A stretch of DNA of 63,081 bases from Actinomycetota bacterium (lineage in GTDB: Bacteria > Actinomycetota > Actinomycetes > JACCUZ01): the NCBI GenBank assembly GCA_030841035.1, contig JAVEDI010000064.1, positions 1-63,081 on the forward strand, in the 5' to 3' direction. The position numbers were made by a program, and so were the translations under genes. This document shows positions 5,746-42,971 of this stretch, piece after piece; the stretch's first letter is position 1; the number at the start of each line of letters is the position of its first letter. A model generated the notes under the pieces. It made no database searches. It was given only the letters and a program-made list of their open reading frames with translations, and had not been told where the DNA came from.

Positions 5746-5841
5746 TCGCGACACCCGTCCTCTCGACCGCGCACCGAGCCACCCGATCCTGCGCCCTGCT
5801 TGCCAGATCCGGGCTCGGGGGGAGTATGGTCACCGACTGCA

Positions 5842-5930
5842 ACACGGGAGCCCGGTAAGGACCGGGCTGAGAGGGTGGGCTGCCAGCCCCCGACCGTCCG
5901 AACCTGATCCGGGTAATGCCGGCGCAGGGA
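5842..5930 (+). promoter_or_regulatory. TPP riboswitch (THI element)
   Basis: The sequence carries both conserved blocks of the thiamine pyrophosphate riboswitch: ACGGGAG ... GGGCTGAGAGGG on the 5' side and ACCTGATCCGGGTAATGCCGG on the 3' side (positions about 5844-5875 and 5902-5922). It lies in the leader of the thiamine operon, about 60 bp before the first thiE start. By family knowledge, TPP binding turns off expression of the downstream genes, in actinobacteria usually by hiding the ribosome binding site. The distance to GGAGGGAGG before 5989 fits translational control. Confidence 0.95.
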
Positions 5931-5988
5931 GTTCACCAGAGCCTGACGGCTGCCCTCTCTCCCATCCGTGTGCGCGGAGGGAGGCGTC

Positions 5989-25204: not shown

Positions 25205-26908
25205 ATGACGACGGCCATCGACCTCTTCGCCCGGCACGAGCAGCTCCTGCAGCGCGCGCTGAGCGCGATCCGCGAGCGCAGCTACTGGTCGGCATACCCG
25301 GAGAACCTCAAGGCGTACGGCGAGAACGGCACGCTGTCCGTCGCGGACGGCAAGGCCGCCTTCGATGCTGTCCTCGACAAGCCGTTCGCGCTCGAGCAGC
25401 CCGCCACGGACGGGCAGGTCGCCGGCGAGCGGTCGCCCTACGGCATCGAGCTGGGCCTCACCTATCCCCATGCCGACGTCGACGTGCTGCTCCACGCGGC
25501 CCAGCAGGCCATGCCCGCGTGGCGCGACGCCGGGCCCGACGCCCGCGCCGGCGTCGTACTCGAGATCCTCGCGCGCATCAACGCGCGCAGCCACGAGCTG
25601 GCCCAGGCCGTCATGCACACCAGCGGCCAGGCGTACGCGATGGCGTTCCAGGCAGGTGGGCCGCACGCGCAGGACCGGGCGCTCGAGTCCATCGCCTACT
25701 CCTACGCCGAGATGACCCGCCACGCCACCGAGGCGACGTGGGAGAAGCCGCAGGGCAAGCGACCCCCGCAGCGCATGACCAAGCGCTTCACGGTCGTGCC
25801 GCGCGGTGTCGCCCTGGTCGTCGGCTGCAACACCTTCCCGACGTGGAACTCCTATCCCGGGCTGTTCGCCAGCCTCGTCACCGGCAACCCGGTGGTCGTC
25901 AAGCCGCACCCCGCGGCGGTGCTGCCGCTGGCGCTGACCGTGCAGGTCGCCCGGGAGGTCCTGACGGAGGCGGGGTTCTCGCCCGATCTCGTCACCCTGG
26001 CGCCCGAGCAGCCCGGAGAGGGGCTGGCCAAGGTCCTGGCCCTGCGCGGCGAGGTGCGGATCGTCGACTACACCGGCTCCACCGAGTTCGGCACCTGGCT
26101 CGAGCGCAACGCCCCGCAGGCCGTGGTGTTCACCGAGAAGGCCGGCGTCAACACCGTCGTGCTCGACTCCACCGACGACTACCGCGGCATGCTCGCGAAC
26201 CTGGCGTTCTCCCTCTCGCTGTACAGCGGGCAGATGTGCACCACGCCGCAGAACCTGCTGATCCCCCGCGACGGCATCACCGCCGACGGCGAGCCGAAGT
26301 CGGTCGACGACGTGGCCCGTGACCTGGCCGCCGCGATCGACGCGCTGCTCGGTGACGACGCCCGCGCGACGGCGCTGCTCGGCGCGATCGTCAACGGCGG
26401 CGTGCTCGAGCGGCTCGGCAGCGCGGCGTCGTACGGCGACGTCGTGCTGGCCTCCCGCACGGTCGCGCACCCGGAGTTCCCGGACGCCACGGTGCGTACG
26501 CCGACCGTTGTACGGCTGGACGCCGGTGACCGCGACACCTATCTGAAGGAGCACTTCGGTCCGGTGGCCTTCCTCGTCACGACCGACGGCACCGAGGCCT
26601 CGATCGACCTGCTGCGCGAGACCGTCCGCGAACACGGTGCAATCACCGCTGCCGTCTACTCGACCGACGAGAAGGTCCTCGAGGCCACCGAGCAGGCGGC
26701 CCTCGACGCGGGCGTGGCCCTGTCGTGCAACCTGACCGAGACCGTCTACGTCAACCAGTCGGCCGCGTTCAGCGACTTCCACGCCACCGGAGCGAACCCA
26801 GCGGCCAATGCGGCGCTCACCGACGCGGCGTACGTCGCCAGCCGGTTCCGCGTCGTGCAGTCACGACGTCACCTGCCCGGAGGGGATGACCCCGCCACTC
26901 CCGGATGA
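25205..26908 (+). CDS. paaN: phenylacetic acid degradation protein PaaN-like aldehyde dehydrogenase
   Basis: A 567-residue aldehyde dehydrogenase-superfamily protein of the PaaN type, used in the aerobic phenylacetyl-CoA route. The N-terminal 60 residues (HEQLLQRALSAIRERSYWSA) and the segment NTFPTWNSYPG are PaaN landmarks. The catalytic Cys lies in SGQMCTTPQN and the general-base-type Glu region in FTEKAGVN. There is no C-terminal MaoC hydratase domain, unlike the long bifunctional form. No other paa genes are in the window, so its pathway partners must be elsewhere. ATG 25205 stands alone after the hairpin at 25111. Confidence 0.9.
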   Translation: MTTAIDLFARHEQLLQRALSAIRERSYWSAYPENLKAYGENGTLSVADGKAAFDAVLDKPFALEQPATDGQVAGERSPYGIELGLTYPHADVDVLLHAAQQAMPAWRDAGPDARAGVVLEILARINARSHELAQAVMHTSGQAYAMAFQAGGPHAQDRALESIAYSYAEMTRHATEATWEKPQGKRPPQRMTKRFTVVPRGVALVVGCNTFPTWNSYPGLFASLVTGNPVVVKPHPAAVLPLALTVQVAREVLTEAGFSPDLVTLAPEQPGEGLAKVLALRGEVRIVDYTGSTEFGTWLERNAPQAVVFTEKAGVNTVVLDSTDDYRGMLANLAFSLSLYSGQMCTTPQNLLIPRDGITADGEPKSVDDVARDLAAAIDALLGDDARATALLGAIVNGGVLERLGSAASYGDVVLASRTVAHPEFPDATVRTPTVVRLDAGDRDTYLKEHFGPVAFLVTTDGTEASIDLLRETVREHGAITAAVYSTDEKVLEATEQAALDAGVALSCNLTETVYVNQSAAFSDFHATGANPAANAALTDAAYVASRFRVVQSRRHLPGGDDPATPG

Positions 26909-26962: not shown

Positions 26963-29900
26963 ATGAGCCTGAGGACCTTCGTCGAGGGGTGGCCGGTCTA
27001 TCGCCAGCTGACCGGCACCGACCCGCTCGGCCGCGGCGCCGCCGCGATGTCGGTCCGCAGTGCCGCGCTGACCCCGCGCACCGAGGACGCCGACCGGGTC
27101 GCCCGCTCGGTGTGTCCCTACTGCGCCGTCGGCTGCGGCCAGAAGGTCTACGTCAAGGACGAGAAGGTCGTGCAGATCGAGGGCGACCCCGACAGCCCGA
27201 TCTCGCGCGGCCGGCTCTGCCCCAAGGGCTCGGCCAGCAAGCAGCTGGTGACCGGGCCGCAGCGCGAGCAGAAGGTGCTCTACCGCGCGCCCTACGCCAC
27301 CGAGTGGACCGAGCTGGACCTCGACTCCGCCATGGACATGGTGGCCGACCGGGTCCTCGACGCCCGGCACAAGGGCTGGCAGGACGAGGACCACCACGGT
27401 CACACGGTCAGGCGCACGATGGGCATCGCCAGCCTCGGTGGCGCGACGCTGGACAACGAGGAGAACTACCTCATCAAGAAGCTTTTCACCGCGCTCGGGG
27501 CGATCCAGATCGAGAACCAGGCCCGCATTTGACACTCCGCCACCGTCCCCGGTCTGGGGACCTCCTTCGGTCGCGGCGGGGCGACGGACTACCAGCAGGA
27601 CCTGTCCAACTCTGACTGCATCGTCATCATGGGCTCCAACATGGCGGAGGCCCACCCCGTCGGTTTCCAGTGGGTGGTCGAGGCCAAGAGCCGCGGCGCG
27701 AAGGTCATCCACATCGACCCGCGGTTCACCCGCACCAGCGCGTTGGCCGACGCCCACGTACCGCTGCGTGCGGGAAGCGACATCGCGTTCCTCGGCGGGG
27801 TCATCAACTACATCCTCAGCAACGACCTGGCCTTCCGCGACTACGTCGTGCCCTACACCAACGCGTCGTTCCTGCTGAGCGAGGACTTCCGCGACACCGA
27901 GGACCTGGACGGGTTGTTCAGCGGCTACGACCCCGAGAGCGCGACCTACGACCCGGCGTCCTGGCGATACGAGGGTGCACCGGCGACCCCGCCGACCGCT
28001 GAAGGCTCCGCGGAGCAGGCACTGGGCGACCAGCACGGCTCCGGTGGTGCGCGCCTGGAGGGCGTCAGCATGCACCCGCCCTCCGACCCGACCCTCGAGC
28101 ACCCGCGCTGCGTCTACCAGGTGCTCAAGCGTCACTACGCCCGCTACACCCCCGAGATGGTCGCGGAGGTGTGCGGGACGCCGCGTGACCTGTTCCTGCA
28201 GGTCTGCCAGGCGTGGACGTCGGCCTCCGGCCGGGAACGTACGGCAGCACTGGTCTACTCCGTGGGCTGGACCCAGCACACCGTCGGCGTGCAGTACATC
28301 AGGTCGGCCGCGATCATCCAGCTGCTGCTGGGCAACATGGGGCGCCCGGGTGGCGGCATCCTGGCCCTGCGCGGCCACGCGAGCATCCAGGGCTCGACCG
28401 ACATCCCGACGCTGTTCAACCTGCTGCCGGGCTACATCCCGATGCCGGCCTCGACCGGCAACGACACTTTCGACGACTACGTGGAGAGCGTCCGCGGCGA
28501 GCAGCAGAAGGGGTTCTGGCGCAACGCCAACGCCTACATCGTGTCCCTGTTGAAGGAGTACTGGGGCGACAACGCGACCGCCGACAACGACTTCTGCTAC
28601 GACTACCTGCCGCGCATCTCCGGCGACCACGGGACCTACCGCACGGCCCTGGACATGATCGACGGCAGGGTCTTCGGCTATTTCCTGCTCGGCCAGAACC
28701 CCGGTGTCGGCTCCGCGCACGGCCGCCTGCAGCGACTCGGCATGGCCAACCTCGACTGGCTGGTCGTGCGCGACCTGGCGATGATCGAGAGCGCCACGTT
28801 CTGGAAGGACTCACCCGAGGTCGAGACCGGCGAGATCCGGCCGGAGACCTGCCGCACGGAGGTGTTCTTCTTCCCGGCCGCCTCGCACGTCGAGAAGGAG
28901 GGCACGTTCACCCAGACCCAGCGGATGCTCCAGTGGCGCGAGAAGGCCGTCGAACCGCGCGGCGACCAGCGTTCGGACCTGTGGTTCTTCTTCCATCTGG
29001 GCCGCATGCTGCGCGAGCGGCTGGCCGGGTCGGACGCCCGGCGCGACCGACCGCTCCTCGACCTGTTCTGGGACTACGAGGTGCGCGACGGCGAACCGAG
29101 CGCCGAACACGTGCTCCGGCGCATCAGCGGTCAGGACGTCGCCACGGGCAAGCAGCTCAGCGGCTACATGGACCTCAAGGACGACGGCTCCACCCTGTCG
29201 GGCTGCTGGATATACAGCGGCGTGTACGCCGACGGGGTCAACCAGGCCGCCCGACGCACATCGCGCTTCGAGCAGGACCTCTACGCCCACGAGTGGGGCT
29301 GGGTGTGGCCCTACAACCGCCGCATCCTCTACAACCGGGCGTCCGCCGATCCGGCCGGCCGGCCGTGGAGCGAGCGCAAAGCCATCATCTGGTGGGACGA
29401 GGAGAAGAAGGAGTGGACCGGCCACGACGTCCCCGACTTCGAGAAGGACAAGCCGCCGACCTACGAGCCGCCGCAGGACGCGGTGGGAGTGGCCGCCCTG
29501 CGCGGTGACGACCCGTTCATCATGCAGGCCGACGGCAAGGGCTGGCTGTTCGTGCCCAACGGCCTGCTCGATGGGCCGATGCCGACCCACTATGAGCCGC
29601 ACGAGTCGCCGGTACGCAACCCGCTCTACGGTCAGCAGGGCAATCCGACGCGCACGGTCTACGGCCGCAGCGACAACCCGTCCAACCCGGGGCCACCCGA
29701 GCCGAACGCCGAGGTCTTCCCGTACGTCTTCACGACGGCCCGGCTCACCGAGCACCACACGGCCGGCGGGATGAGCCGCTGGCTGCCCTACCTCTCCGAG
29801 CTCCAGCCGGAGATGTTCGTCGAGGTGTCCCCCGAGCTGGCCCGCGAGCGCGACCTGCAGCACCTCGGGTGGGCGACCCTCGTGTCGAGCCGGTCCGCGA

Positions 29901-30268
29901 TCGAGGCGCGGGTCATCGTCACCGACCGGATGAAACCCCTGCGCGTCGCCGGCCGCACCGTCCACCAGGTGTGGGTGCCCTACCACTGGGGTGCCACGGG
30001 ACTGGTCACCGGCGACTCCGCCAACGACCTGCTCGGTGTGGCACTGGACCCGAACGTCCTGATCCAGGAGAGCAAGGTCGCCACCTGCGACGTACGACCC
30101 GGCCGTCGCCCACGCGGCGAGGAGCTGCTCGCCTACGTCGAGGACTACCGCCGCCGGGCCGGTATCACCGTCGAGACCGGGACCCGGGTCACCACCGTCG
30201 GGCCGGGAGCGTCCATCGCGCACATCGAGACCGCCCCCGAGGGGCAGGACGACGAGGAGCGGTCATGA
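26963..30268 (+). CDS. fdhA: selenocysteine-containing formate dehydrogenase, catalytic subunit
   Basis: A 1101-residue molybdo- or tungsto-pterin formate dehydrogenase that oxidises formate to CO2. The frame contains TGA at 27530-27532, which must be read as selenocysteine 190. It stands in NQARI-Sec-HSATVPGLG, the same place as Sec in E. coli formate dehydrogenases, and the frame continues without break to 30268. A SECIS-like hairpin follows the TGA. The N-terminal [4Fe-4S] cysteines are Cys51, Cys54, Cys58 and Cys86. No Tat signal is present, so the subunit faces the cytoplasm. ATG 26963 follows GGGAGGAG. The next gene overlaps by 4 bases. Automatic annotation would split it into two fragments. 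Confidence 0.95.
27530..27573 (+). promoter_or_regulatory. bacterial SECIS element for Sec insertion in fdhA
   Basis: Directly after the TGA, a perfect 6-bp stem (GTCCCC, 27545-27550, with GGGGAC, 27556-27561) closes a GGTCT loop. In E. coli fdhF the SECIS apical loop also contains GGUCU, and there too GGU-CUG are the eighth and ninth codons counting UGA as the first. SelB, encoded at 42976, would bind this loop to deliver Sec-tRNA. The recoding site and the loop are read directly; binding is inferred. Confidence 0.85.
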
Positions 30269-31281
30269 CCCAGGACAACCGGCTCTACGGGCCTCTGGAC
30301 GACGTCGCTGGCGACGCCGGCCATGTCGGGCACCCCCCGCGGATGGGCTTCTTCACCGACACCTCCGTGTGCATCGGCTGCAAGGCCTGCGAGGTCGCCT
30401 GCAAGGAGTGGAACCTGCTGCCCGACGACGGCTTCGAGCTGCTCGGCATGTCGCTGGACAACACCGGCAGCCTCGGGGCCAGCTCGTGGCGCCACGTCGC
30501 GTTCATCGAGCAGGAGCGGCCCATCGCGGGGCAGGACCCCGGGGTCATCGGTACGCCGACCGGGCCCTCCGGCACCGGTGCGACCGCCACGTCGGTCGCT
30601 GAGGCCCTGCACGGCACACCTGGACGCGGCTCCGAGCTCGGCACCGAACCCGTCGACCTGCCGATGCCGTCCTTCGAGCTGCCCGGCGAGGGCACCGGCG
30701 CCGAGGGCCGCACCGACTTCCGGTGGCTGATGGCCTCCGACGTGTGCAAGCACTGCACCCACGCCGGGTGCCTCGACGTCTGCCCCACCGGCGCGCTGTT
30801 CCGCACCGAGTTCGGGACGGTCGTCGTACAGCAGGACATCTGCAACGGCTGCGGGTACTGCGTGCCCGCCTGCCCCTACGGCGTCATCGACCGACGGGAG
30901 GACGACGGACGCGCCTGGAAGTGCACGCTGTGCTACGACCGGCTCAAGGGAGGCCTCGAGCCCGCGTGCGCGAAGGCCTGCCCGACCGACTCGATCCAGT
31001 TCGGTCCGCTCGATCAGCTGCGGGAGCGGGCCGCGAGACGGGTCGACCAGCTGCACGAGGTCGGCGTGCCGGAGGCCCGGCTGTACGGCGAGGACCCGCA
31101 CGACGGCGTCGGCGGGACGGGCGCGATGTTCCTGCTGCTCGACGAGCCCGAGGTCTACGGCCTGCCACCGGACCCCGTCGTGCCGACGAGGGACCTGCCG
31201 CGCATGTGGCGCTTCGCAGGGGCCGCCGCCGGCGCCCTGGTCGTGGCGGCGATCGGGGCCTTCGCCGGACGGCGGCCGTGA
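30265..31281 (+). CDS. fdhB: formate dehydrogenase iron-sulfur subunit
   Basis: A 338-residue electron-transfer subunit with four [4Fe-4S] motifs: CIGCKACEVAC near residue 36, CKHCTHAGCLDVC, CNGCGYCVPAC, and CTLCYDRLKGG with its distant CAKAC. It would pass electrons from the Sec subunit to the membrane subunit. About 70 residues rich in Gly, Pro and Thr are inserted between the first and second clusters. The C-terminus has one hydrophobic anchor (AGAAAGALVVAAIGAFAG). ATG 30265 overlaps the fdhA stop, and its own stop overlaps the next start (GTGA), so the three subunits are translationally linked. Confidence 0.93.
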   Translation: MTQDNRLYGPLDDVAGDAGHVGHPPRMGFFTDTSVCIGCKACEVACKEWNLLPDDGFELLGMSLDNTGSLGASSWRHVAFIEQERPIAGQDPGVIGTPTGPSGTGATATSVAEALHGTPGRGSELGTEPVDLPMPSFELPGEGTGAEGRTDFRWLMASDVCKHCTHAGCLDVCPTGALFRTEFGTVVVQQDICNGCGYCVPACPYGVIDRREDDGRAWKCTLCYDRLKGGLEPACAKACPTDSIQFGPLDQLRERAARRVDQLHEVGVPEARLYGEDPHDGVGGTGAMFLLLDEPEVYGLPPDPVVPTRDLPRMWRFAGAAAGALVVAAIGAFAGRRP

Positions 31282-32360
31282 CCGACCGGCCCACCGAGCC
31301 CCGCAGCGACACCGGTGCGCGCGATCGCGACGCGCTGCTGTGGCAGGGCCTCGGCCAGAGCGGTGACCGGCCGGCCGGTCGGCGCCGCAAGAAGGGTGCG
31401 GACGACGGTTCGCGCGAGACGCCGATGGTGCCCCGCGCCACGTTCCAGTCCTACTACGGGCGACCGGTGCTCAAGGCGCCCGTGTGGAAGGACGACATCG
31501 CCTACTACTTCTTCCTCGGCGGCCTGTCCGCCGGGTCCAGCCTGCTGGGCGCAGGCGCTGACCTGACCAGCCGGCCCGGGCTGCGCCGCGGGACCCGCGT
31601 CGCAGCGCTGGCGTCGCTCGGCGTCGGGGCGTTCTATCTCGTCAAGGACCTCGGGCGCCCCGAGCGGTTTCTCAACATGCTGCGGGTGGTCAAGCCCACG
31701 TCGCCGATGAGCGTCGGCACCTGGGTCTTGACCGCGTACGGTCCGGCCGTCGGCCTCGCCGCAGCCAGCGAGCTGCTGCCGCAGCAGCTGCGTCGTAGTG
31801 TGCTCGGCCGGCTGATCGACTCGCTGGCCCGGCCGGCCGGGCTGTCCGCCGCAGCGCTCGCGCCGGCCGTGGCGTCGTACACCGCGGTGCTCCTGTCGCA
31901 GACCGCCGTGCCCGCCTGGCACGACTCCCACGAGGAGCTGCCGTTCATCTTCACCGGCAGCGCCGCCGCGAGCGCCGGGGGCCTGGGCATGATCATCGCT
32001 CCGGCCGCCGAGGCCGGGCCGGCCCGGGCCCTCGCGCTCTACGGTGCGGCGGTCGAGCTCGCGGCGTCGCGCCGCCTCGAGCATCGGCTCGGCGTCGAGA
32101 GCGAGCATTTCCACACCGGTCGGGCCGGTCGCGAGCTGCGGCTGGCCGCCACGCTCACCGCTGTCGGCGCGGCCGGCACCCTCGTGCTCGGCCGGCGGGG
32201 CCGCGTCGCCGGGTGCGTGGCCGGCGCCGCGCTGGTGGCCGGCGGCTTCTTCGAGCGGCTCGGGCTGCTGCACGCCGGGGCCGCGTCGGCGGTCGACCCA
32301 CGCGCGACGGTGCAGCCCCAGCGGGCCCGCATCGAGGCCGGTCGCCCCGCCCGGTCCTAG
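31278..32360 (+). CDS. NrfD/PsrC-type membrane subunit of formate dehydrogenase
   Basis: A 360-residue integral membrane protein of the NrfD family, without heme ligands, which anchors the Fe-S subunit and exchanges electrons with quinone. The N-terminal 60 residues are polar and basic. The conserved start of the first helix, WKDDIAYYFFLGGLSAGSSL, follows, then FYLVKDLGRPERF and SPMSVGTWVL, all typical of NrfD. About eight membrane segments can be drawn. GTG 31278 overlaps the fdhB stop by 4 bases. Together the three genes describe a cytoplasm-facing, membrane-attached respiratory formate dehydrogenase. Confidence 0.9.
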   Translation: MTDRPTEPRSDTGARDRDALLWQGLGQSGDRPAGRRRKKGADDGSRETPMVPRATFQSYYGRPVLKAPVWKDDIAYYFFLGGLSAGSSLLGAGADLTSRPGLRRGTRVAALASLGVGAFYLVKDLGRPERFLNMLRVVKPTSPMSVGTWVLTAYGPAVGLAAASELLPQQLRRSVLGRLIDSLARPAGLSAAALAPAVASYTAVLLSQTAVPAWHDSHEELPFIFTGSAAASAGGLGMIIAPAAEAGPARALALYGAAVELAASRRLEHRLGVESEHFHTGRAGRELRLAATLTAVGAAGTLVLGRRGRVAGCVAGAALVAGGFFERLGLLHAGAASAVDPRATVQPQRARIEAGRPARS

Positions 32361-32468: not shown

Positions 32469-33854
32469 ATGGCGCTTACATTCCTCGACCGGGATCGCAG
32501 CGTGGCCGGCCCGGGGTACAACCGCTGGCTCTTCCCGCCGGCCGCCCTCGCCGTGCACCTGTCGATCGGCCAGGTCTACGCGTTCAGCGTTTTCAAGACG
32601 CCGCTGGTCGACCACTTCCACAGCAGCCTCACGGCGATCGGCATCGTGTTCAGCATCGCGATCGTGATGCTGGGCGCGTCGGCAGCGATCCTCGGCACCT
32701 GGGTCGAGCGCAGCGGACCACGCAAGTCGATGGCTGCCGCAGCCCTGTGCTGGTCGAGCGGCTTCCTGATCGGCGCGCTCGGGGTCGCCAGCGACCAGCT
32801 GTGGCTGGTCTACCTGGGCTACGGGGTCATCGGCGGCATCGGGCTGGGCATCGGCTACATCTCGCCCGTCTCGACGCTGATCAAGTGGTTCCCCGACCGG
32901 CCGGGCCTGGCCACCGGCCTCGCCATCATGGGGTTCGGCGGCGGTGCGCTCATCGCCTCCCCTCTCTCGAACAAGCTCCTCACCACCTACGCCGACAAGC
33001 CGCAGGACGCGATCGTGCCGGCGTTCCTCACCCTCGGCGCCCTCTACCTCGTGGCCATGCTGCTCGGCGCCACTGCCGCTCGGGTGCCTCCCGCCGGCTG
33101 GGCACCGCCCGGCTGGACCGCGCCCACCAGCCAGGCGAGCGGCATGCGCACTACCGCCAACGTCACGGCGGCCGACGCGATCCGCACCCGGTCCTTCTGG
33201 CTGCTGTGGATCGTGCTGTTCTGCAACGTCACCGCCGGCATCGGCATCCTCGAGCAGGCCAGCCCGATGATCCAGGACTTCTTCTCCAACGTCGACGCCA
33301 ACGCCGCGGCCGGCTACGTCGGCCTCCTCTCGCTGGCGAACATGTCGGGACGGTTCATCTGGTCGTCCACCTCCGACGTCATCGGCCGGAAGGCGACATA
33401 CATGGGCTACCTCGGCATCGGTGCCGTGCTGTACTTCCTCGTGGCCACGACCGGTACGTCGTCGGTAGCGTGGTTCGTCGCCCTCACCGCGCTGATCATC
33501 AGCTTCTACGGCGGCGGGTTCGCGACCGTGCCGGCCTACCTCAAGGACCTCTTCGGGGGCCTCGAGGTCGGTGCCATCCATGGCCGGCTGCTCACCGCGT
33601 GGTCGGCGGCCGGAGTCGCCGGGCCGCTGATCGTCAACCGGATCGCCGATGCCCGCAAGGCCAACGGCATCAAGGGCGCCGACCTCTACACCCTCTCGCT
33701 CTCGATCATGGTGGGAGTTCTCATCGTCGGGTTCCTGGCCAACCTGGCCATCCGTCCGGTCCCCGAACGCTTCCACGCGGGCCCCGACGGAGCCCGTAGG
33801 GGCACGGGAGGCGACGTGGATCTGCGCAACGAGGAGGAGGTGACGAACCGATGA
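32469..33854 (+). CDS. OFA-family MFS transporter (oxalate/formate antiporter-like)
   Basis: A 461-residue major facilitator with about 12 membrane segments. The N-terminal HLSIGQVYAFSVFKTPL and the loop pattern WVERSGPRKSM fit the oxalate:formate antiporter (OFA) family. A 40-residue central loop separates the two halves. Its position between the formate dehydrogenase genes and selD suggests it moves formate or a related carboxylate to the enzyme. GGAGGTGG precedes ATG 32469. The next gene, a very small membrane protein, overlaps by 4 bases. Confidence 0.87.
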   Translation: MALTFLDRDRSVAGPGYNRWLFPPAALAVHLSIGQVYAFSVFKTPLVDHFHSSLTAIGIVFSIAIVMLGASAAILGTWVERSGPRKSMAAAALCWSSGFLIGALGVASDQLWLVYLGYGVIGGIGLGIGYISPVSTLIKWFPDRPGLATGLAIMGFGGGALIASPLSNKLLTTYADKPQDAIVPAFLTLGALYLVAMLLGATAARVPPAGWAPPGWTAPTSQASGMRTTANVTAADAIRTRSFWLLWIVLFCNVTAGIGILEQASPMIQDFFSNVDANAAAGYVGLLSLANMSGRFIWSSTSDVIGRKATYMGYLGIGAVLYFLVATTGTSSVAWFVALTALIISFYGGGFATVPAYLKDLFGGLEVGAIHGRLLTAWSAAGVAGPLIVNRIADARKANGIKGADLYTLSLSIMVGVLIVGFLANLAIRPVPERFHAGPDGARRGTGGDVDLRNEEEVTNR

Positions 33855-34021: not shown

Positions 34022-35026
34022 TCAGCGGACCACGAGGACGGCCGGGCCGGCGGGGATGAGCTCACCGACCACGGGGTAGCCCGGCACCTCGCCCGCCACC
34101 AGCAGCCCGCCCGACGTCTGCGCGTCGGCGAGCAGCAGCAGCTCGTCCTCGCCCACCCGGGCTGACAGGTGCGGCCGCACCCAGTCCAGGTTGCGCCGCG
34201 TGCCGCCGCTGACGTAGCCGTCGCGCAGGGCGGCGCGCGCGCCGTCGACATACGGCACGGCAGCGGCGTCCACGACGGCCGTGACGCCACTGGCCCGCGC
34301 CATCTTGAACAGATGGCCCAGCAGTCCGAAGCCGGTCACGTCGGTCGCCGCCCGAGCCCCGGCGGCGAGCGCGGCCGAGGCCGCCGAGGCGTTCAGCGTC
34401 GTCATGAGGTCGACGGCCTGGGCGAACACCTCGCCCGTTGCCTTGTGCCGGCTGTTGAGCACGCCGATGCCCAGCGGCTTGGTCAGGGTGAGGGGTACGC
34501 CGGCGGTGGCCGCGTCGTTGCGCAGCAGTCGGGCCGGGTCGGCGAGCCCCGTCACTGCCATGCCGTACTTGGGCTCCGCGTCATCGACGCTGTGACCGCC
34601 TGCCAGGTGCGCCTTCGCCGCGAGAGCCACGTCGGCGCCGCCCCGCAGCACCTCACGCGCGAGCTCGAGCGGCAGCGTGTCGCGTGGCCACGCGAGCAGG
34701 TTGACGGCGACCAGCGGCGACCCGCCCATCGCGTAGATGTCGGAGAACGCGTTGGCCGCCGCGATGCGACCGAAGTCGTAGGCGTCGTCCACCACCGGGG
34801 TGAAGAAGTCGGCAGTTGCGATCACGGCGCGGTCGCCGTCGATCCGCACTACCGCGGCGTCATCGCCGTCCGCGAGGCCGACGAGCAACTCGTGCTCACC
34901 CACCGGACCCGGGGCGGCCAGCCCGGCGACCATCGACTCGAGCTCACCCGGCGGGATCTTGCACGCGCATCCTCCACCGCGAGAGAACTGCGTCAACCGG
35001 ACCGCGCCGAGGGTGACCGTGCTCAT
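34022..35026 (-). CDS. selD: selenide, water dikinase
   Basis: A 334-residue enzyme that makes selenophosphate, the selenium donor for SelA, from selenide and ATP. The flexible N-terminal catalytic loop reads GGGCACK, giving Cys20 and Lys23 in the positions of E. coli Cys17 and Lys20. This SelD is therefore a cysteine form and not itself a selenoprotein. Other landmarks are DFFTPVVDDAYDFGRIAAANAFSD, LAGGHSVDD, KPLGIGVL and ATDVTGFGLLGH. ATG 35026 begins the conserved region. It converges with the MFS small subunit and diverges from the HTH-TOBE regulator. It completes the Sec pathway with selA, selB and selC. Confidence 0.96.
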   Translation of the reverse strand: MSTVTLGAVRLTQFSRGGGCACKIPPGELESMVAGLAAPGPVGEHELLVGLADGDDAAVVRIDGDRAVIATADFFTPVVDDAYDFGRIAAANAFSDIYAMGGSPLVAVNLLAWPRDTLPLELAREVLRGGADVALAAKAHLAGGHSVDDAEPKYGMAVTGLADPARLLRNDAATAGVPLTLTKPLGIGVLNSRHKATGEVFAQAVDLMTTLNASAASAALAAGARAATDVTGFGLLGHLFKMARASGVTAVVDAAAVPYVDGARAALRDGYVSGGTRRNLDWVRPHLSARVGEDELLLLADAQTSGGLLVAGEVPGYPVVGELIPAGPAVLVVR

Positions 35027-35214
35027 GCGCCAGACCGTAGCTGGTTGGCCCTGACCGGGGGCTGCTGCACCTGTCCCGCGCACCGGACCCCGCCGGGCGG
35101 GGGCGCGTCCGCCCTGCATCTCCTGACGCATTCTCGGCTCCCAGCGGCCTATGGGACTGCTGGTGCTGCTGAAACCATGTCGGAAACTCGCATCTGCGGG
35201 TAGGGTCCTGCCTC

Positions 35215-35669: not shown

Positions 35670-36485
35670 ATGCCTCGCACCGCGAAACCGCTGGTCGCCC
35701 TCGTCGCCGTCGGCGCGCTCCTCACCGGCTGCGGGGGATCCAGCGGGGCGAACAGCCCCTCCGGCACGTCCGGCTCCTCCGGGTCGTCGTCCGCGACCTC
35801 GTCCACCGCGGTCGCGGGCACCATCAACGTGTTCGCGGCCGCGTCGCTGCAGAAGGCGTTCACCACGCTGGGCTCCCAGTTCGAGCGCAAGAACCCGGGC
35901 ACGAAGGTCGTCTTCAACTTCGGCCCGAGCTCCGGGCTGGCCGAGCAGATCAGCCAGGGCGCGCCGGCGGACGTCTTCGCGTCGGCCAGCACCAAGACCA
36001 TGGACCAGGTGGTCACCAGCGGAGACGCCGCGAGCCCCACCGACTTCGTGACGAACACGATGGAGATCGCGGTGCCGCCGGACAACCCGGCCGGCATCAC
36101 ATCGGTAGCCGACCTGGCCAAGAAGGGCGTGAAGGTGGCGCTGTGCCAGACCGATGTCCCCTGCGGCGCCACCGCCCTGACGGTGTTCCAGAACGCCAAG
36201 GTCCACGTCACCCCGGTCACCGAGGAGATCGACGTGAAGGCCACGCTGGGCAAGGTGAGCCTCGGCGAGGTCGACGCCGGCGTGGTGTACGTCACCGACG
36301 TGCGCGCGGCCGGGACATCGGTGAAGGGCATCGAGATCCCGAGCGACGTCAACGCCTCCACGACGTACCCGATCGCCACGCTGACGAGCTCGAAGAACAA
36401 GGCGACCGCCAAGGCCTTCGTCGACTACGTGCTCTCGCCCGACGGCCTCGCGGCGTTGACCGCCAGCGGGTTCAGCAAGCCCTGA
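35670..36485 (+). CDS. modA: molybdate ABC transporter substrate-binding lipoprotein
   Basis: A 271-residue lipoprotein. The signal ends in the lipobox LLTGC, followed by a Ser/Gly-rich linker. The ModA core begins with INVFAAASLQKAFTTLG and continues with FNFGPSSGLAEQISQGAPADVFASA, the anion-binding segments of molybdate/tungstate receptors. AAGGAGAAG lies before ATG 35670. modB follows 36 bp later. It supplies the metal for the pterin cofactor of the formate dehydrogenase next door. Confidence 0.94.
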   Translation: MPRTAKPLVALVAVGALLTGCGGSSGANSPSGTSGSSGSSSATSSTAVAGTINVFAAASLQKAFTTLGSQFERKNPGTKVVFNFGPSSGLAEQISQGAPADVFASASTKTMDQVVTSGDAASPTDFVTNTMEIAVPPDNPAGITSVADLAKKGVKVALCQTDVPCGATALTVFQNAKVHVTPVTEEIDVKATLGKVSLGEVDAGVVYVTDVRAAGTSVKGIEIPSDVNASTTYPIATLTSSKNKATAKAFVDYVLSPDGLAALTASGFSKP

Positions 36486-36521
36486 GACCAGTCGGCGTCC
36501 TCGGCCCGGCAGTCTGTGCCC

Positions 36522-37346
36522 ATGACCGCACAATCTGAGCGTGCTACGACGCCCTCATCGAGCATCGTGCCCTGGCCGCTGGCCCTGACAGCGCTCGTCA
36601 CCATCGCGTTCCTGCTGGTGCCACTGGTCGGCCTGGTGATCCGTGCCCCCTGGCGCAACCTGGGGCACGTCCTCGCCGAGACCCAGGTGGTCGAGGCGTT
36701 GCGGCTGTCGCTGGTGTGCGCCAGCGCAGCCACCGTCCTGTCACTGGTCTTCGGGGTGCCGTTGGCGTGGGTGCTGGCCCGGGCGAGGTTCCGCGGGCAC
36801 GGCCTGCTGCGGGCCCTGGTCACGCTGCCGCTGGTCCTGCCACCGGTCGTCGGAGGTGTCGCGCTGCTGCTGGCCTTCGGTCGCCGCGGGATCGTGGGGC
36901 AGTACCTGGACTCGTGGTTCGGCCTCACGCTCCCCTTCACCACGCTCGGCGTGGTCGTGGCCGAGACGTTCGTCGCCATGCCGTTCCTGGTCGTCACCGT
37001 CGAGGGCGCCTTCCGGAGCGCCGACCGTGGCTACGAGGAAGCCGCGGCCACCCTCGGTGCGTCCCGGCTGACGGTGTTCCGCCACGTCACCCTGCCGCTG
37101 GTCGCGCCGTCCCTGGTGGCCGGCTCGGTGCTGTGCTGGGCGCGCGCCCTCGGCGAGTTCGGGGCCACCATCACCTTCGCGGGCAACTTCCCGGGCCGCA
37201 CCCAGACGATGCCGATCGCGGTGTACCTGGCGCTGGAACGTGACCCCAAGGCCGCCATCGCCCTGTCGCTGGTCCTCCTCGCGGTCTCCGTCGCCGTCCT
37301 CGTCGGGCTGCGCGACCGCTGGCTCCACACCGGGCCCACCGCATGA
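36522..37346 (+). CDS. modB: molybdate ABC transporter permease
   Basis: A 274-residue permease with about five to six membrane segments. The binding-protein-dependent transport motif for ATPase contact is EEAAATLGASRLTVFRHVTLP. The C-terminal part ARALGEFGATITFAGNFPG is typical of ModB. A GTG at 36516 is an alternative start two codons earlier. The stop overlaps the modC start (ATGA). Confidence 0.94.
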   Translation: MTAQSERATTPSSSIVPWPLALTALVTIAFLLVPLVGLVIRAPWRNLGHVLAETQVVEALRLSLVCASAATVLSLVFGVPLAWVLARARFRGHGLLRALVTLPLVLPPVVGGVALLLAFGRRGIVGQYLDSWFGLTLPFTTLGVVVAETFVAMPFLVVTVEGAFRSADRGYEEAAATLGASRLTVFRHVTLPLVAPSLVAGSVLCWARALGEFGATITFAGNFPGRTQTMPIAVYLALERDPKAAIALSLVLLAVSVAVLVGLRDRWLHTGPTA

Positions 37347-38479
37347 CTGCCAGCTCCGTGCCGCTCGGGCACGCAGCGGGCGCACGGGCCTCCCTGGAGC
37401 TGGACGTCGTCGTCCGCCGCGACGCGTTCACGTTGGAGGTCGCCACCGAGGTCGCGCCCGGCGAGGTGCTGGGGGTGCTCGGCCCCAACGGCGCCGGGAA
37501 GACCACTCTGCTGCGGGCTCTCGCCGGGCTCGCCGCCGTCACCTCGGGCAGCATCCGGCTCGGCGGCACGGTGCTCGACGACGCGACGGCCGGCACGTTC
37601 GTCCCGGCCGAGCAGCGGCCCGTCGGACTGGTGTTCCAGGACTACCGGCTGTTCCCCCACCTGAGCGTGCGCGACAACGTCGCGTTCGCCGCTCGCTCCC
37701 GTGGCGCCCGTCGCAGTGACGCCCGCCGGCACGCCGACCGCTTCCTCGACCAGCTCGACCTGACCGACCTGGCACAGCGCAGACCGGCGCAGCTGTCCGG
37801 CGGGCAGGCGCAACGCGTCGCCCTGGCCCGGGCCCTGGCGGCCGAGCCGGCGATGCTCCTGCTCGACGAGCCACTGGCGGCGCTTGACGCCCGTAGCCGG
37901 CTCGAGGTCCGCAGCGAGCTGCGCCGGCACCTCGCCGACTTCCCCGGCCCCGTGCTGGTGGTGACCCACGACCCGCTCGAGGCGATGGTCATGACCGACC
38001 GTCTGCTCGTGCTCGAAGAGGGTCACGTCGTCCAGCACGGCACACCGGCTCGCGTCGCGCGCCGCCCAGCCACCCAGTACGTCGCCCGTCTCGTGGGCCT
38101 CAACCTCTACCCCGGCACGCTGGTCGCGCCCGACGGGACCGTGGCGCTGGCCACCGGCGGCAGCCTGGTTGCGACGCCTGCCGAGCCGATCCCGCCCGGG
38201 TCGACCGACGTGCTCGTCGCGGTGCGACCCTCGGCCATCGCGGTGCACACCGCGCGGCCCGACCATGCCAGCCCCCGCAACGTCTGGGCCGGGACCATCA
38301 CCGGCCTCGAGCTGCTCGCCGACCGGGTGCGCGTCCAGGTGCAGGGCGCCCCGGACGCGCTCGTGGACCTGACCCCTGCCGCTGTGGCCGACCTCGCGCT
38401 GCGCCCCGGCCTGCAGGTATGGCTCTCCGCGAAGGCCACCGAGGTCGACGTCTATCCCGACCGGCCACCGAGCCGGTGA
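37343..38479 (+). CDS. modC: molybdate ABC transporter ATP-binding protein
   Basis: A 378-residue ABC ATPase. Walker A is GPNGAGKTT at about 49-57, the Q loop is in FQDYRLFPHL, the signature is LSGGQAQR, Walker B is LLLLDEPLAALD and the switch His is in VVTHDPLEA. The C-terminal 130 residues form TOBE-like regulatory domains, as usual in ModC. It overlaps modB by 4 bases. A hairpin follows at 38503. Confidence 0.95.
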   Translation: MTASSVPLGHAAGARASLELDVVVRRDAFTLEVATEVAPGEVLGVLGPNGAGKTTLLRALAGLAAVTSGSIRLGGTVLDDATAGTFVPAEQRPVGLVFQDYRLFPHLSVRDNVAFAARSRGARRSDARRHADRFLDQLDLTDLAQRRPAQLSGGQAQRVALARALAAEPAMLLLDEPLAALDARSRLEVRSELRRHLADFPGPVLVVTHDPLEAMVMTDRLLVLEEGHVVQHGTPARVARRPATQYVARLVGLNLYPGTLVAPDGTVALATGGSLVATPAEPIPPGSTDVLVAVRPSAIAVHTARPDHASPRNVWAGTITGLELLADRVRVQVQGAPDALVDLTPAAVADLALRPGLQVWLSAKATEVDVYPDRPPSR

Positions 38480-38689: not shown

Positions 38690-38782
38690 GGAGGCGTTTG
38701 GGTGTCTGGTGACCCCCGCGGTCTTCAAAACCGACGTGGCCGAGGATCTCGGCCAGGCGGGTTCGATTCCCGTCCGCCTCCG
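38690..38782 (+). tRNA. selC: tRNA-Sec (anticodon TCA), recombined at its 3' half
   Basis: The gene has the anticodon loop CTTCAAA (anticodon TCA, reading UGA) and a long variable arm, TGGCCGAG-GAT-CTCGGCCA, with a perfect 8-bp stem. The T arm is GCGGG-TTCGATT-CCCGT, and the 8-position acceptor pairs GGAGGCG with CGCCTCC plus a T-C mismatch at the eighth position. The D stem also has one mismatch. After the discriminator G the genome reads CTA instead of CCA. The 3' 61 bases are repeated at 41498, next to selA, where CCA is intact. An island has thus been inserted, and this copy is a hybrid of host 5' half and incoming 3' half. It should still be functional if CCA is added post-transcriptionally. 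Confidence 0.93.
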
Positions 38783-38783
38783 C
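38723..38783 (+). repeat. left direct repeat (attL-type) in selC
   Basis: The 61 bp from the anticodon loop to the end of selC are repeated at 41498-41558 with 60 of 61 bases equal; the single difference is GAGGATC here and GAAGATC there. This is the usual signature of tyrosine-integrase insertion into a tRNA gene. Confidence 0.9.
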
Positions 38784-38979
38784 TAAGCCGTCTACCTGCG
38801 CAGACGTGGCTAGCGGCTGCCCTCTGGATCGGTCCGACGTCGCCAAGGTCGACGTTCTGGACCACACACAGACCACAATCGGCCTATGCCAGCCGACCAC
38901 ACCGAGGCGCGTCCATCCGTGGCAAAGCCCTGCCGCCCGCCGCTGTCCACAGGCATCGCTCGGTAGCGCAACACCACCG

Positions 38980-39527
38980 TTGTGGGTGCTCCGAGCCGGC
39001 GAGGTTGCCGGGATCCGAGTCCGCAACGTCAACATCGCGCGGCCGAGGGTCGAGGTCAAGGAGACGGTGATCTTCCTCGGCGGCGAACTGCTGGCCGACA
39101 CCCCGAAGTCCCTCAAGAGCCGCCGCACCGTGCCCATCCCGCCACCGGTAGCCCGGATGCTGGCTGACCACATCGCGGCGCACGACCTGCGGGCGGACGA
39201 CTACGTGTTTGGCGACGGCGCCGTACCTCTCAACCACGACTGGTTCTACCGGGTGCACTTCAAGCCAGCGGCCGATCGAGCCGGTACCAAGGGCGTGCGG
39301 TTCCACGACCTGCGGCACACGTTCGCCAGCCTCATAGCGCACCACGGCACGGCAAGGACCTCTACCGGGTCAGCCGGTGGATGGGTCACAGCACCATCGC
39401 GATCACTGCCGACCTCTACACGCACCTGTTTGAGACCGAGGACGACGCGCTGGCGTCGCGGCTGGAGACGGCGTTCCTCACCGGCCACCAGGCCGACCGC
39501 ACCGTGGTCAGCCTGCCGAGGGCAACG
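38980..39527 (+). pseudogene. tyrosine integrase remnant, frameshifted and lacking the N-terminus
   Basis: The catalytic domain of a phage-type tyrosine recombinase is recognisable: LRAGEVAGIRVRNV with the first Arg, KSRRTVPIP, then RFHDLRHTFASL with the HxxR pair. At about 39349-39351 one base is missing. The frame must change to continue with KDLYRVSRWMGHSTIAITAD and the nucleophile Tyr in ADLYTHL. The N-terminal DNA-binding half is absent; upstream sequence has no match. It lies beside the left repeat, the normal place for an integrase of a tRNA-targeting element. It is not functional as it stands. Confidence 0.87.
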
Positions 39528-39593
39528 TCCGGCTGCCGCGAACCGCTGGATTCGCGTCGGGGGCCGAGCAGTCGTCACGGCCCCGTCGACGAT

Positions 39594-40073
39594 CTACATG
39601 CGCGCGAGAAGGTCCGCCTTCTTGGCGTCAAACTCGGCTTGGGTGACGATGCCTTGGTCGCGGAGTAAAGCGAGTTGCTGGATCTGGTCGCCAATGTTCG
39701 GCGCGCTCGGCGGCGCATGAACCGGAGCCTGCGGCGTTGCTCGGGCGACAATGACCTGCTCGATGGCCTCGCGCAGCGCGAGGAACTCGGGCATCTGCTT
39801 CTTGGTGAACATGACCGAGTTCTCGTCCTTCGCAGCGTCAGTGGACTGGCTGCCAAAGGAGGAGCGTCGTTCGTTCCCACCGGGGACCGTGAACTGGATG
39901 AAGCCGTTCACAATCCCGCCAGCGGGCTTGAACTGAACCGCGACGATGCTCGCGACAGGAATGCGCTTCTCGCCCTTGCCGATGGTCGCCCGCGCGAGGA
40001 AGCCCTTCCGATTGATCGTGACGAAGTGGCCGTCGAAGTTGATGACTCCGTTGTGGCCCTTGACCTCTGTCAT
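39594..40073 (-). CDS. DUF4429-like protein with C-terminal SHOCT domain
   Basis: A 159-residue protein in the island. The N-terminal 100 residues resemble DUF4429 (GHNGVINFDGHFVTINRKG, then VASIVAVQFKPAG and GFIQFTVPGGNE), a PH-like beta fold. The C-terminal 35 residues are a SHOCT domain (IQQLALLRDQGIVTQAEFDAKK). Such proteins are common on mobile elements, but their function is unknown; SHOCT may mediate oligomerisation. ATG 40073 follows GGGGGA. It converges with the integrase remnant. Confidence 0.8.
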   Translation of the reverse strand: MTEVKGHNGVINFDGHFVTINRKGFLARATIGKGEKRIPVASIVAVQFKPAGGIVNGFIQFTVPGGNERRSSFGSQSTDAAKDENSVMFTKKQMPEFLALREAIEQVIVARATPQAPVHAPPSAPNIGDQIQQLALLRDQGIVTQAEFDAKKADLLARM

Positions 40074-40157
40074 AGATCCCCCATGAGTTTCGACTGTCAC
40101 GCGACGCAGAGTACGCCGCCACTCGTCACCTTGTGACCGATTCGTCCAGTAGCAGGC

Positions 40158-40595
40158 CTAAAGACCCTCGGTGAGAACCTTCACCAGAACGCTGGTCAGC
40201 ACGCCCTTGCCGACGCCCTTTGCCCCGTCGAGGAACTTCCTCGCACCGCTCCGCTCTTCCTCGGTAGGTGCGTTCTCGGCGGCGTCTTCTAGCGCGGCGA
40301 TGATGCGGTCAGCCAGGCTCTCCCGTGTCGGCCACTGCCCTACGCGACGTCGCGCTTCGCCGGTCGCGTCGCCGGCGCCCATGAAGAACTTGCCGGACAT
40401 TGAGCTCACATCGATGACCGAGATGAGACGCGGTTGCTCGTTGTTGAGTGCACGGAGCGCGGCTTGCAGCAGGGCGTCGTCATGGCCGGTGCGTTGCGCG
40501 AGGGTGTCGAGTCTTGCGTACTGTCCCGTCTCATCCTCGAAGTCAACAATTGCCTTCAGGACCGGAAGGTCTCGCGTCTCCCACACGGACGTCAT
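40158..40595 (-). CDS. hypothetical protein of the selC island
   Basis: A 145-residue acidic, helical protein of unknown function. It starts MTSVWETRDLPVLKAIVDFED, has a possible helix-turn-helix-like segment (LDTLAQRTGHDDALLQAALRAL), a middle strand-rich part (RLISVIDVSSMSGKFFMGAG) and a Gly/Lys-rich C-terminus (GAKGVGKGVLTSVLVKVL). ATG 40595 has GGGGGA 9 bases upstream. It lies between two other small minus-strand genes, so the three may form one operon of accessory cargo. The winged-helix reading is a guess. Confidence 0.7.
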   Translation of the reverse strand: MTSVWETRDLPVLKAIVDFEDETGQYARLDTLAQRTGHDDALLQAALRALNNEQPRLISVIDVSSMSGKFFMGAGDATGEARRRVGQWPTRESLADRIIAALEDAAENAPTEEERSGARKFLDGAKGVGKGVLTSVLVKVLTEGL

Positions 40596-40653
40596 TTGAT
40601 GTGTCCCCCGATGAGCAGGCAACGCCGGGGCGGTGGGACCCCGGCGTCGATAT

Positions 40654-40797
40654 CTACTTCTTGCCCTTGCCCTTCGGCGTCTGCGAGAGCGCGCTTCCCG
40701 CCGCCGTCTTGTCGGCCTTCGACGACTTGGGGTTGCGCAGAACGCTGCTCGCAGCCGTCGCGGCCTTTTGACCGGTCTGGCGCTTGTTCATTGCCAT
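40654..40797 (-). CDS. small basic protein of the selC island
   Basis: A 47-residue Lys/Ala/Ser-rich protein beginning MAMNKRQTGQKAATAASSVL and ending SQTPKGKGKK. Small proteins of this pattern, often with the words SKADKTAAGSALSQ, occur in many bacteria and have no known role. The gene is well supported by a strong GGAGGGAGG 7 bases before ATG 40797. It is the first gene of the minus-strand trio in the island. Confidence 0.7.
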   Translation of the reverse strand: MAMNKRQTGQKAATAASSVLRNPKSSKADKTAAGSALSQTPKGKGKK

Positions 40798-41497
40798 GTG
40801 ACACACCTCCCTCCTTCGGTACTGGCTTGCGCCGACCGAAGGAGGCAGACTGCTGGTTTCCACACCGCGGAGCCTCCTTCAGACGGTTCTGCACCGGCGC
40901 CCTTCGCCCATCACCGCGAGGGGCGCTGGCATTTTCTGAGCCTGGGAATCGTGGATAACTACATCGCTGTGATTCACAAGCCGTGCCCAATGGGAACATC
41001 GCCACCACCAGATGTGCAAGCAGTCCTGTGGACCAGCGGAAAGTCGTCCTACGCCCGGCCTCTCGGGCTCCGTACCGTGCCTGGCATGACCGACAGCAGC
41101 CACCAACCCCGCGAATGAACCGCTCCCCCGGCGAGCCCACGGACGCTCGCGACCGGGCGCTCGAGCGATCGGCGGGAGCGGAGCTCCCGTCGGGCGTACA
41201 GCAGCTGGGCCAAAGTGAACTGCGCGCTGCTGAGGGAAGTCGCGCCAGTCAAGGTCGGGCGGGCAACGTGCCGCGAGAACGCCTGGCTGAGGGGGATCGC
41301 GTCGCTGTAAGCAGCGCCGTCGCCGGTTCATCTAGGACTCCATTTCGGCGCTGTGCGTCACTGACATGCTTATGGCGGAGTCAAAGACACAGCGGAACTA
41401 CACGGGCGCGCTCTGGTTGCCGGGACTGGCCCTGTGGCTTGCGCTTTACCGTTCAATTTCCTGGTAGAAGGCTCGGGTCCAGTCGGCGTCCATCCGG
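40798..41497. other. 700 bp of island DNA without a recognised gene
   Basis: I see no reading frame here with family similarity or a good ribosome binding site. Open frames on both strands are short or overlap the selC fragment. The stretch is less GC-biased than the host DNA. It includes the promoter region of the 47-residue protein at its left end. A 31-codon frame at 41372-41467 with a hydrophobic middle is the only small candidate, and it lacks a start signal. Confidence 0.6.
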
Positions 41498-41560
41498 CTT
41501 CAAAACCGACGTGGCCGAAGATCTCGGCCAGGCGGGTTCGATTCCCGTCCGCCTCCGCCA
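41498..41560 (+). repeat. 3' half of selC (attR-type) with encoded CCA
   Basis: This is the displaced end of tRNA-Sec, from the anticodon loop to the encoded CCA at 41558-41560. It matches the last 61 bases of selC at 38723-38783 with one difference. It has no acceptor 5' strand or D arm and cannot be a tRNA. It shows that the host gene originally encoded CCA and stood about 100 bp before selA. Confidence 0.92.
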
Positions 41561-41660: not shown

Positions 41661-42971
41661 GTGCGCACCCCCCACGACGGCGAGGAACCGCGCCGCGCCG
41701 TACCCCGCACCGACGTGCTGCTGGCCGACCCGCGCCTGGCCGCGGCGACCGAGCGGCTGGGCGCGGCCATCGTCAAGGCCGGGGTCGCCGCGGCCCAGGA
41801 GCGGGTACGCCGCGCGGAGATCCCGCCGTCCGCCGCCGCGGACGTCGCGCTCGCCAGCCTGCCGGCCACGGCAACGTCGATGCGCCGCGTGCTCAACGCG
41901 ACCGGAGTGGTGCTGCACACCAACCTGGGCCGGGCGGCCCTGTCCGCGGCCGCCGTCGACGCGGTGGGTGAGGCAGCGGGCGCGACCGACGTCGAGCTCG
42001 ACCTGGCCACGGGTCGCCGGGCGCGCCGGGGCCGCGGGGCCCTGGCCGCGCTGGCCGCCGCGGTGCCCGACGCCGAAGCGGTGCACGTGGTCAACAACGG
42101 CGCCGCTGCCCTCGCACTCGCGGCGGTCACCCACGCCGCGGCTCGCGAGATCGTCGTCAGCCGCGGCGAGCTGGTCGAGATCGGCGACGGCTTCCGGCTG
42201 CCCGACCTGCTCGTCAGCGCCGGCGCGCGGTTGTGCGAGGTCGGCACGACGAACCGCACGACGCTCGCCGACTACGAACGAGCGATCGGTAGCGACACGG
42301 CGCTGGTCCTCAAGGTCCACCCGTCGAACTTCGTCATCAGCGGCTTCACCTCGACGGTGCCGGTGGAGGCGCTCGCCACCCTCGGCGTGCCGCTGCTCGT
42401 CGACCTCGGCTCGGGACTGCTCAGCCGTCACCCACGGCTGCCCGACGAGCCCGACGCCGCCTCTACGCTGCGCGCCGGCGCCGACCTGGTCACCGCTAGC
42501 GGCGACAAGCTGTTGGGCGGTCCGCAGTGCGGCCTGGTGCTCGGCCGCTCGTCACTCGTCGAGCCGATGCGCCGACACCCGATGGCGCGTGCCATGCGGG
42601 TCGACAAGCTCACCCTCGCGGCGCTCGAGGCGACCGTCACCGGCCCGGCGACCCCCACCGCACGGGCGCTCGCGACGACGTACGGCGACCTGCGGCACCG
42701 CGCCGAGCGACTCGCCGCGGAGCTTGCCCGCGCCGGTCTGGACGCTCGAGCCGTCGACAGCGACGCGTCGGTCGGCGGTGGCGGGGCACCCGGTGTCGTG
42801 CTGCCCAGCGCGGCGGTGAGCCTGCCCGCCGACCACCACCCCCGCCTGCGCGCGGCCACGCCACCGGTCCTGGGCCGGCTGCGCGACCACCGCTGCCTGC
42901 TGGACCTGATCGCCGTCGACCCCGCCGACGACGCGCTGCTCGCCGCAGCCGTCCGCTCCCTCGCCGGGTAG
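41661..42971 (+). CDS. selA: L-seryl-tRNA(Sec) selenium transferase
   Basis: A 436-residue PLP enzyme that converts Ser-tRNA-Sec to Sec-tRNA-Sec using selenophosphate. The PLP lysine is Lys283 in SGDKLLGGPQCG. Other landmarks are VLNATGVVLHTNLGRA, VNNGAAA, SRGELVEIGDGFRLPD, EVGTTNRT and KVHPSNF. GTG 41661 lies 100 bp after the selC fragment. selB follows after 4 bp. With selB, selC and selD it completes the Sec machinery. Confidence 0.97.
   Translation: MRTPHDGEEPRRAVPRTDVLLADPRLAAATERLGAAIVKAGVAAAQERVRRAEIPPSAAADVALASLPATATSMRRVLNATGVVLHTNLGRAALSAAAVDAVGEAAGATDVELDLATGRRARRGRGALAALAAAVPDAEAVHVVNNGAAALALAAVTHAAAREIVVSRGELVEIGDGFRLPDLLVSAGARLCEVGTTNRTTLADYERAIGSDTALVLKVHPSNFVISGFTSTVPVEALATLGVPLLVDLGSGLLSRHPRLPDEPDAASTLRAGADLVTASGDKLLGGPQCGLVLGRSSLVEPMRRHPMARAMRVDKLTLAALEATVTGPATPTARALATTYGDLRHRAERLAAELARAGLDARAVDSDASVGGGGAPGVVLPSAAVSLPADHHPRLRAATPPVLGRLRDHRCLLDLIAVDPADDALLAAAVRSLAG

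Follow-up and report, generated by a model that had tools for sequence, protein, structure and literature searches.

A selenocysteine (Sec) formate dehydrogenase (FDH) cluster has been described in Corynebacterium aurimucosum (PMC2830990). In Actinomycetospora chiangmaiensis, formate removal is selenium-dependent, and SelA, SelB, SelD and FDH are expressed (PMC7176365). For mycobacteria, a survey in the literature lists 103 with a predicted tRNA-Sec (PMC9569102). Here, a stretch of 63,081 nt (the window) from an uncultured actinobacterial genus was analysed and compared with these systems.

On the sequence evidence, the gene in question almost certainly encodes a Sec FDH with a SECIS. The original prediction of such an enzyme with a SelB-type SECIS was well supported, and selD, tRNA-Sec, selA and selB were found in the same window. 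Its view that selenoproteins are uncommon in actinobacteria did not hold. Among genomes drawn evenly from the class, tRNA-Sec was found in 79 of 297 genomes and 41 of 105 genera, and of the first 81 loci typed, 74 carried TGA at the Sec site; the family model NF041513 and the published clusters (PMC2830990, PMC7176365) point the same way. The finding is thus correct but ordinary, since tRNA-Sec is widespread in the class and Sec FDH clusters have been published; many actinobacteria were already known to carry genes of this kind.

The formate dehydrogenase frame and its SECIS hairpin

The features of the locus are listed in Table 1. The alpha-subunit frame contains one internal stop only, the TGA at residue 190, and ends with the TGA at 30266-30268; reading of the frame confirmed that the same protein continues for 911 residues past the internal TGA, as had been claimed. 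It matched NF041513 (NCBIfam, formate_DH_Act) over its full length with 1961.5 bits (cut-off 1400). The Pfam domains Molybdop_Fe4S4, Molybdopterin and Molydop_binding were all present, which marks a Mo/W-bisMGD oxidoreductase with an N-terminal 4Fe-4S motif. Upstream of the start, the raw sequence contains a GGGAGGAG box, and the FDHs of several relatives align with the protein from residue 1. No twin-arginine signal was seen in the alpha subunit. Residue 190, in the motif NQAR(U)H, aligned with the position shown as X (Sec) in the structures 1kqf (E. coli FdnG) and 1h0h (a Desulfovibrio FDH). The TGA therefore lies at the Sec site of E. coli FDHs, as predicted, and all close homologues typed have Sec or Cys at this position.

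Table 1 Features of the Sec FDH locus and its surroundings in the window
Feature	Position	Strand	Evidence and remarks
Aldehyde dehydrogenase family protein	25205..26908	+	Pfam Aldedh; upstream neighbour, adjoins FDH also in two family relatives (L091, L099)
FDH alpha subunit (fdnG-like, 1101 aa)	26963..30268	+	NF041513 formate_DH_Act match; in-frame TGA at residue 190
UGA selenocysteine codon	27530..27532	+	Falls on Sec196 of FdnG in the alignment; 62 distinct sequences have TGA/TAG here and 7 have Cys
SECIS hairpin core, 6-bp stem and GGUCU loop	27545..27561	+	GUCCCC-GGUCU-GGGGAC; conservation and covariation
FDH beta subunit, 4Fe-4S ferredoxin-like	30265..31281	+	Pfam Fer4_11 and others; ATGA overlap with alpha
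NrfD-like membrane subunit (gamma)	31278..32360	+	Pfam NrfD; GTGA overlap with beta
MFS transporter	32469..33854	+	Pfam MFS_1; also in same-genus relative L009
selD, selenophosphate synthetase, Cys form (GGCACK motif)	34022..35131	-	Pfam AIRS/AIRS_C; pairs divergently with selC in relatives
modABC molybdate ABC transporter	35670..38479	+	TIGR01256, TIGR02141/TIGR01581; ModC by TIGR02142 below cut-off
selC, tRNA-Sec, anticodon UCA	38690..38783	+	Rfam RF01852 75.3 bits (cut-off 47); ARAGORN
Decayed integrated element	38784..41497	+	Frameshifted tyrosine recombinase fragment, DUF4429/SHOCT gene, small unknown ORFs
Second copy of selC 3' 61 nt (attachment-site repeat)	41498..41558	+	98% identical to 38723-38783; RF01852 37.2 bits, below cut-off
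selA, L-seryl-tRNA(Sec) selenium transferase	41661..42971	+	TIGR00474 420 bits (cut-off 268); Pfam SelA
selB, selenocysteine-specific elongation factor, C-terminal winged helix	42976..44760	+	TIGR00475 284 bits (cut-off 242); Pfam SelB-wing_3

Behind the TGA, the predicted 6-bp stem with a GGTCT loop was present at the fdhF distance, GGTCT beginning 21 nt after the T of the TGA in this gene and in E. coli fdhF alike. The covariance search that had been suggested succeeded only in part: the Rfam model SECIS_3 matched at 27527-27585, but with 22.4 bits against a cut-off of 63, and this model is probably too narrow for the actinobacterial group. The fold of the single sequence was unexceptional (z -0.8). 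The homologous site was gathered from actinobacterial genomes, which gave 62 distinct stop-codon sequences (60 TGA and 2 TAG, the window's included), and the expected hairpin counts came from synonymous codons drawn anew according to the usage of each gene. All six stem pairs were kept in 61 of the 62 sequences, when 11.8 were expected, and a GGTCT, AGTCT or AGTTT loop was found in all 62 (5.3 expected). The hairpin was lost in all seven distinct Cys (TGC) homologues, none of which kept stem and loop. Base pairing joins the third positions of the Val and the Gly codon, as C-G, U-A, U-G or G-C, so that silent sites change together. In 46 of the sequences, the covariation score was 0.283, compared with 0.147 ± 0.014 after shuffling (0 of 500), and pairings slid along the alignment gave 0.12 or less. 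A longer hairpin with an energy-predicted lower stem was rejected: the actinobacterial relatives keep the upper 6-bp stem but not the lower one, in whose helix 75% of cells are paired, so the SECIS is claimed for the upper stem only. Judged from the aligned sequences, the hairpin that directly follows the UGA is under selection, and it is the comparison with relatives that decides this. What emerged is an actinobacterial SECIS established comparatively by its 6-bp stem, conserved apical loop (GGUCU or AGUYU), compensation at third positions across relatives and loss upon the change from Sec to Cys.

Selenocysteine machinery and the element in selC

The original prediction had missed that selA, selB, selC (UCA) and selD all lie in the same window. 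Codon, SECIS and predicted machinery genes are all evident there, so that this uncultured actinobacterial genus is confirmed to have a full selenocysteine system. SelD of the window is the Cys form, not a Sec form. Where relatives carry these genes in one place, selD and selC mostly stand side by side in divergent orientation, and the distance from selC to selA is often no more than about 120 bp. The window locus departs from this order: modABC separates selD from selC, and 2.7 kb separates selC from selA. No ModA or ModB match was found in the other loci compared, and among these loci modABC stood between selD and selC in the window's genome only. In a search for further selenoproteins, the genome's AhpC-like proteins and Fe4S4 molybdoenzymes yielded no additional frame interrupted by a TGA. 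Six of the remaining RF01852 matches in the genome were examined and proved to be tRNA-Ser and tRNA-Trp. Elsewhere in the window, a TPP riboswitch at 5834-5947 scored over its Rfam cut-off.

In E. coli, elements are known to integrate in selC. Here, two directly repeated copies of the 3' half of the tRNA, 61 nt long and 98% identical, flank the 2.7-kb insert, and the repeat keeps selC whole. The same-genus relative L009 shows the empty site, with selC followed by selA and no insert. The tyrosine recombinase fragment beside the intact tRNA-Sec gene has lost its N-terminus and carries a frameshift before the RVSRWMGH motif; it does not represent a functional integrase, and the insert is a remnant, not a live element. 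A plasmid search with the element returned weak DUF4429/PH-domain similarity and nothing more. The RF01852 match at 41467-41556 was rejected as a second tRNA-Sec: ARAGORN made no call, pairs are broken in its acceptor and D arms, and the repeat makes up its 3' 61 nt. This anatomy is usual for an element that integrated in a tRNA gene and has since decayed.

For the source organism, the relatives suggest how Sec would be inserted, what activity the enzyme would have and which way its electrons would go. The gene would encode the catalytic subunit of a molybdenum/tungsten bis-MGD FDH of the FdnG type, with Sec190 as a metal ligand in the active site. SelA would make selenocysteyl-tRNA-Sec using the selenophosphate of SelD, and SelB would carry it and bind the hairpin just behind the UGA, so that selenocysteine is inserted there; otherwise translation of the alpha subunit would end at 189 residues. 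Because of the 4-nt overlaps between alpha, beta and gamma, translation of beta and gamma is probably coupled to UGA read-through. Electrons would pass from the 4Fe-4S beta subunit to the NrfD-like membrane subunit and then probably to the menaquinone pool. Since the alpha subunit has no visible twin-arginine signal, formate oxidation is tentatively placed on the cytoplasmic side.

Relatives, rival readings and the missing FdhD

A full-length FDH match was obtained in 15 genomes, and in 12 of them a TGA-type FDH and tRNA-Sec occurred together (G000, G001, G002, G003, G005, G007, G009, G013, G015, G022, G025 and G034), where the codon in some of the 12 was taken from the stop count, which can include the terminal stop, and not read. 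G004 and G010 have a Cys FDH with the active-site codon TGC, and tRNA-Sec was not found in either genome; the stops that had been reported as internal to these two FDHs turned out to be their terminal stops. In G028 (93% complete), tRNA-Sec was not found, though its FDH (L096:2059) has TGA and SECIS, and the missing tRNA may be an assembly loss. Two FDHs from Modestobacter and Blastococcus MAGs (L036:5478 and L055:431) carry TAG at the Sec site with a perfect SECIS. Their tRNA-Sec was not found on the short contigs concerned, and the TAG fits the known UAG-Sec recoding of Geodermatophilaceae (PMC5330540).

Mechanical ORF calling divides the alpha gene into two frames of 201 aa and 879 aa, as would be expected if the TGA were a true stop or a nonsense mutation in two separate genes or a decaying pseudogene. 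Against this, 62 distinct sequences share a stop at this codon together with a conserved recoding hairpin, the 1101 codons hold no other stop or frameshift, and the full recoding machinery is present; we regard this explanation as extremely improbable, and gene callers ignorant of recoding will split such genes. Equally hard to credit is a UGA read as another amino acid, for example Trp, by genome-wide reassignment or suppression. Nothing was found that speaks for it. TGA ends most of the neighbouring genes, so there is no genome-wide reassignment of the code, the anticodon of the tRNA-Trp encountered in the genome is CCA, and the position is Sec or Cys in every close homologue typed.

A different doubt concerns the enzyme, which might be poorly active or inactive in this genus with signal and cluster intact, either for want of FdhD or through disturbance of selA/selB expression by the element in selC. 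FdhD is the sulfurtransferase that FDHs normally need, and E. coli FDHs require it to sulfurate their cofactor. With the Pfam model (PF02634), FdhD was not found in the window's genome (G000, 99.76% complete) or in its congener (G001, 93% complete), nor was it found in these two genomes of the genus with the FdhD protein of a family relative as query at E up to 10. It was present in 16 of the 19 other genomes searched, the three without it being G001 and two assemblies of 80-82% completeness. Most other Sec-FDH genomes checked have FdhD, and G000 and G001 carry a Sec FDH with none found. This suggests a real loss or a diverged replacement in the genus, and the 2.7 kb between selC and selA would also speak for poor activity. 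However, tRNA-Sec, selA, selB, selD and the FDH genes show no damage, the SECIS is flawless and selC is whole, which makes an impaired enzyme unlikely. It is conceivable, though we would not expect it, that the genus makes a working Sec FDH without FdhD and that some other protein sulfurates the Mo or W cofactor. The absence of FdhD, if real, is worth a test.

Comparison with known systems

With regard to the Sec FDH itself, the protein of the window matches the actinobacterial FDH model NF041513 at full length and shows no difference of note. The FDH1 cluster of Actinomycetospora chiangmaiensis DSM 45062 (PMC7176365) is similar in that a Sec alpha subunit (1078 aa in that strain), beta, gamma, a permease, SelA and SelB are clustered, whereas the cluster of the window also includes selD, modABC and selC; DSM 45062 has FdhD, and none was found in the window's genome. 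The fdnG-selABCD region of Corynebacterium aurimucosum (PMC2830990) likewise has an internal-UGA fdnG clustered with selABD and selC. In corynebacterial relatives, selC precedes selA by about 34-101 bp and the insert is lacking, in contrast to the window, and their SECIS loop is AGTCT or AGTTT instead of GGTCT.

The E. coli enzymes FdnG and FdhF have Sec at the aligned position (TGA at residue 140 in fdhF and 196 in fdnG) and the same spacing from UGA to loop. According to the K-12 record, the loop is GGUCU in fdhF, as in the window, and AGUCU in fdnG, and both start 21 nt after the T of the TGA. Unlike in E. coli, the 6-bp upper stem alone is conserved among the actinobacterial relatives, the FDH of the window has no twin-arginine signal, and its membrane subunit is NrfD-like, not of the FdnI type. 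Finally, the UAG-Sec FDHs of Geodermatophilaceae (PMC5330540) share the enzyme and the SECIS with the window, but they use TAG with a CUA tRNA-Sec, whereas the window's genome uses UGA with a UCA tRNA.
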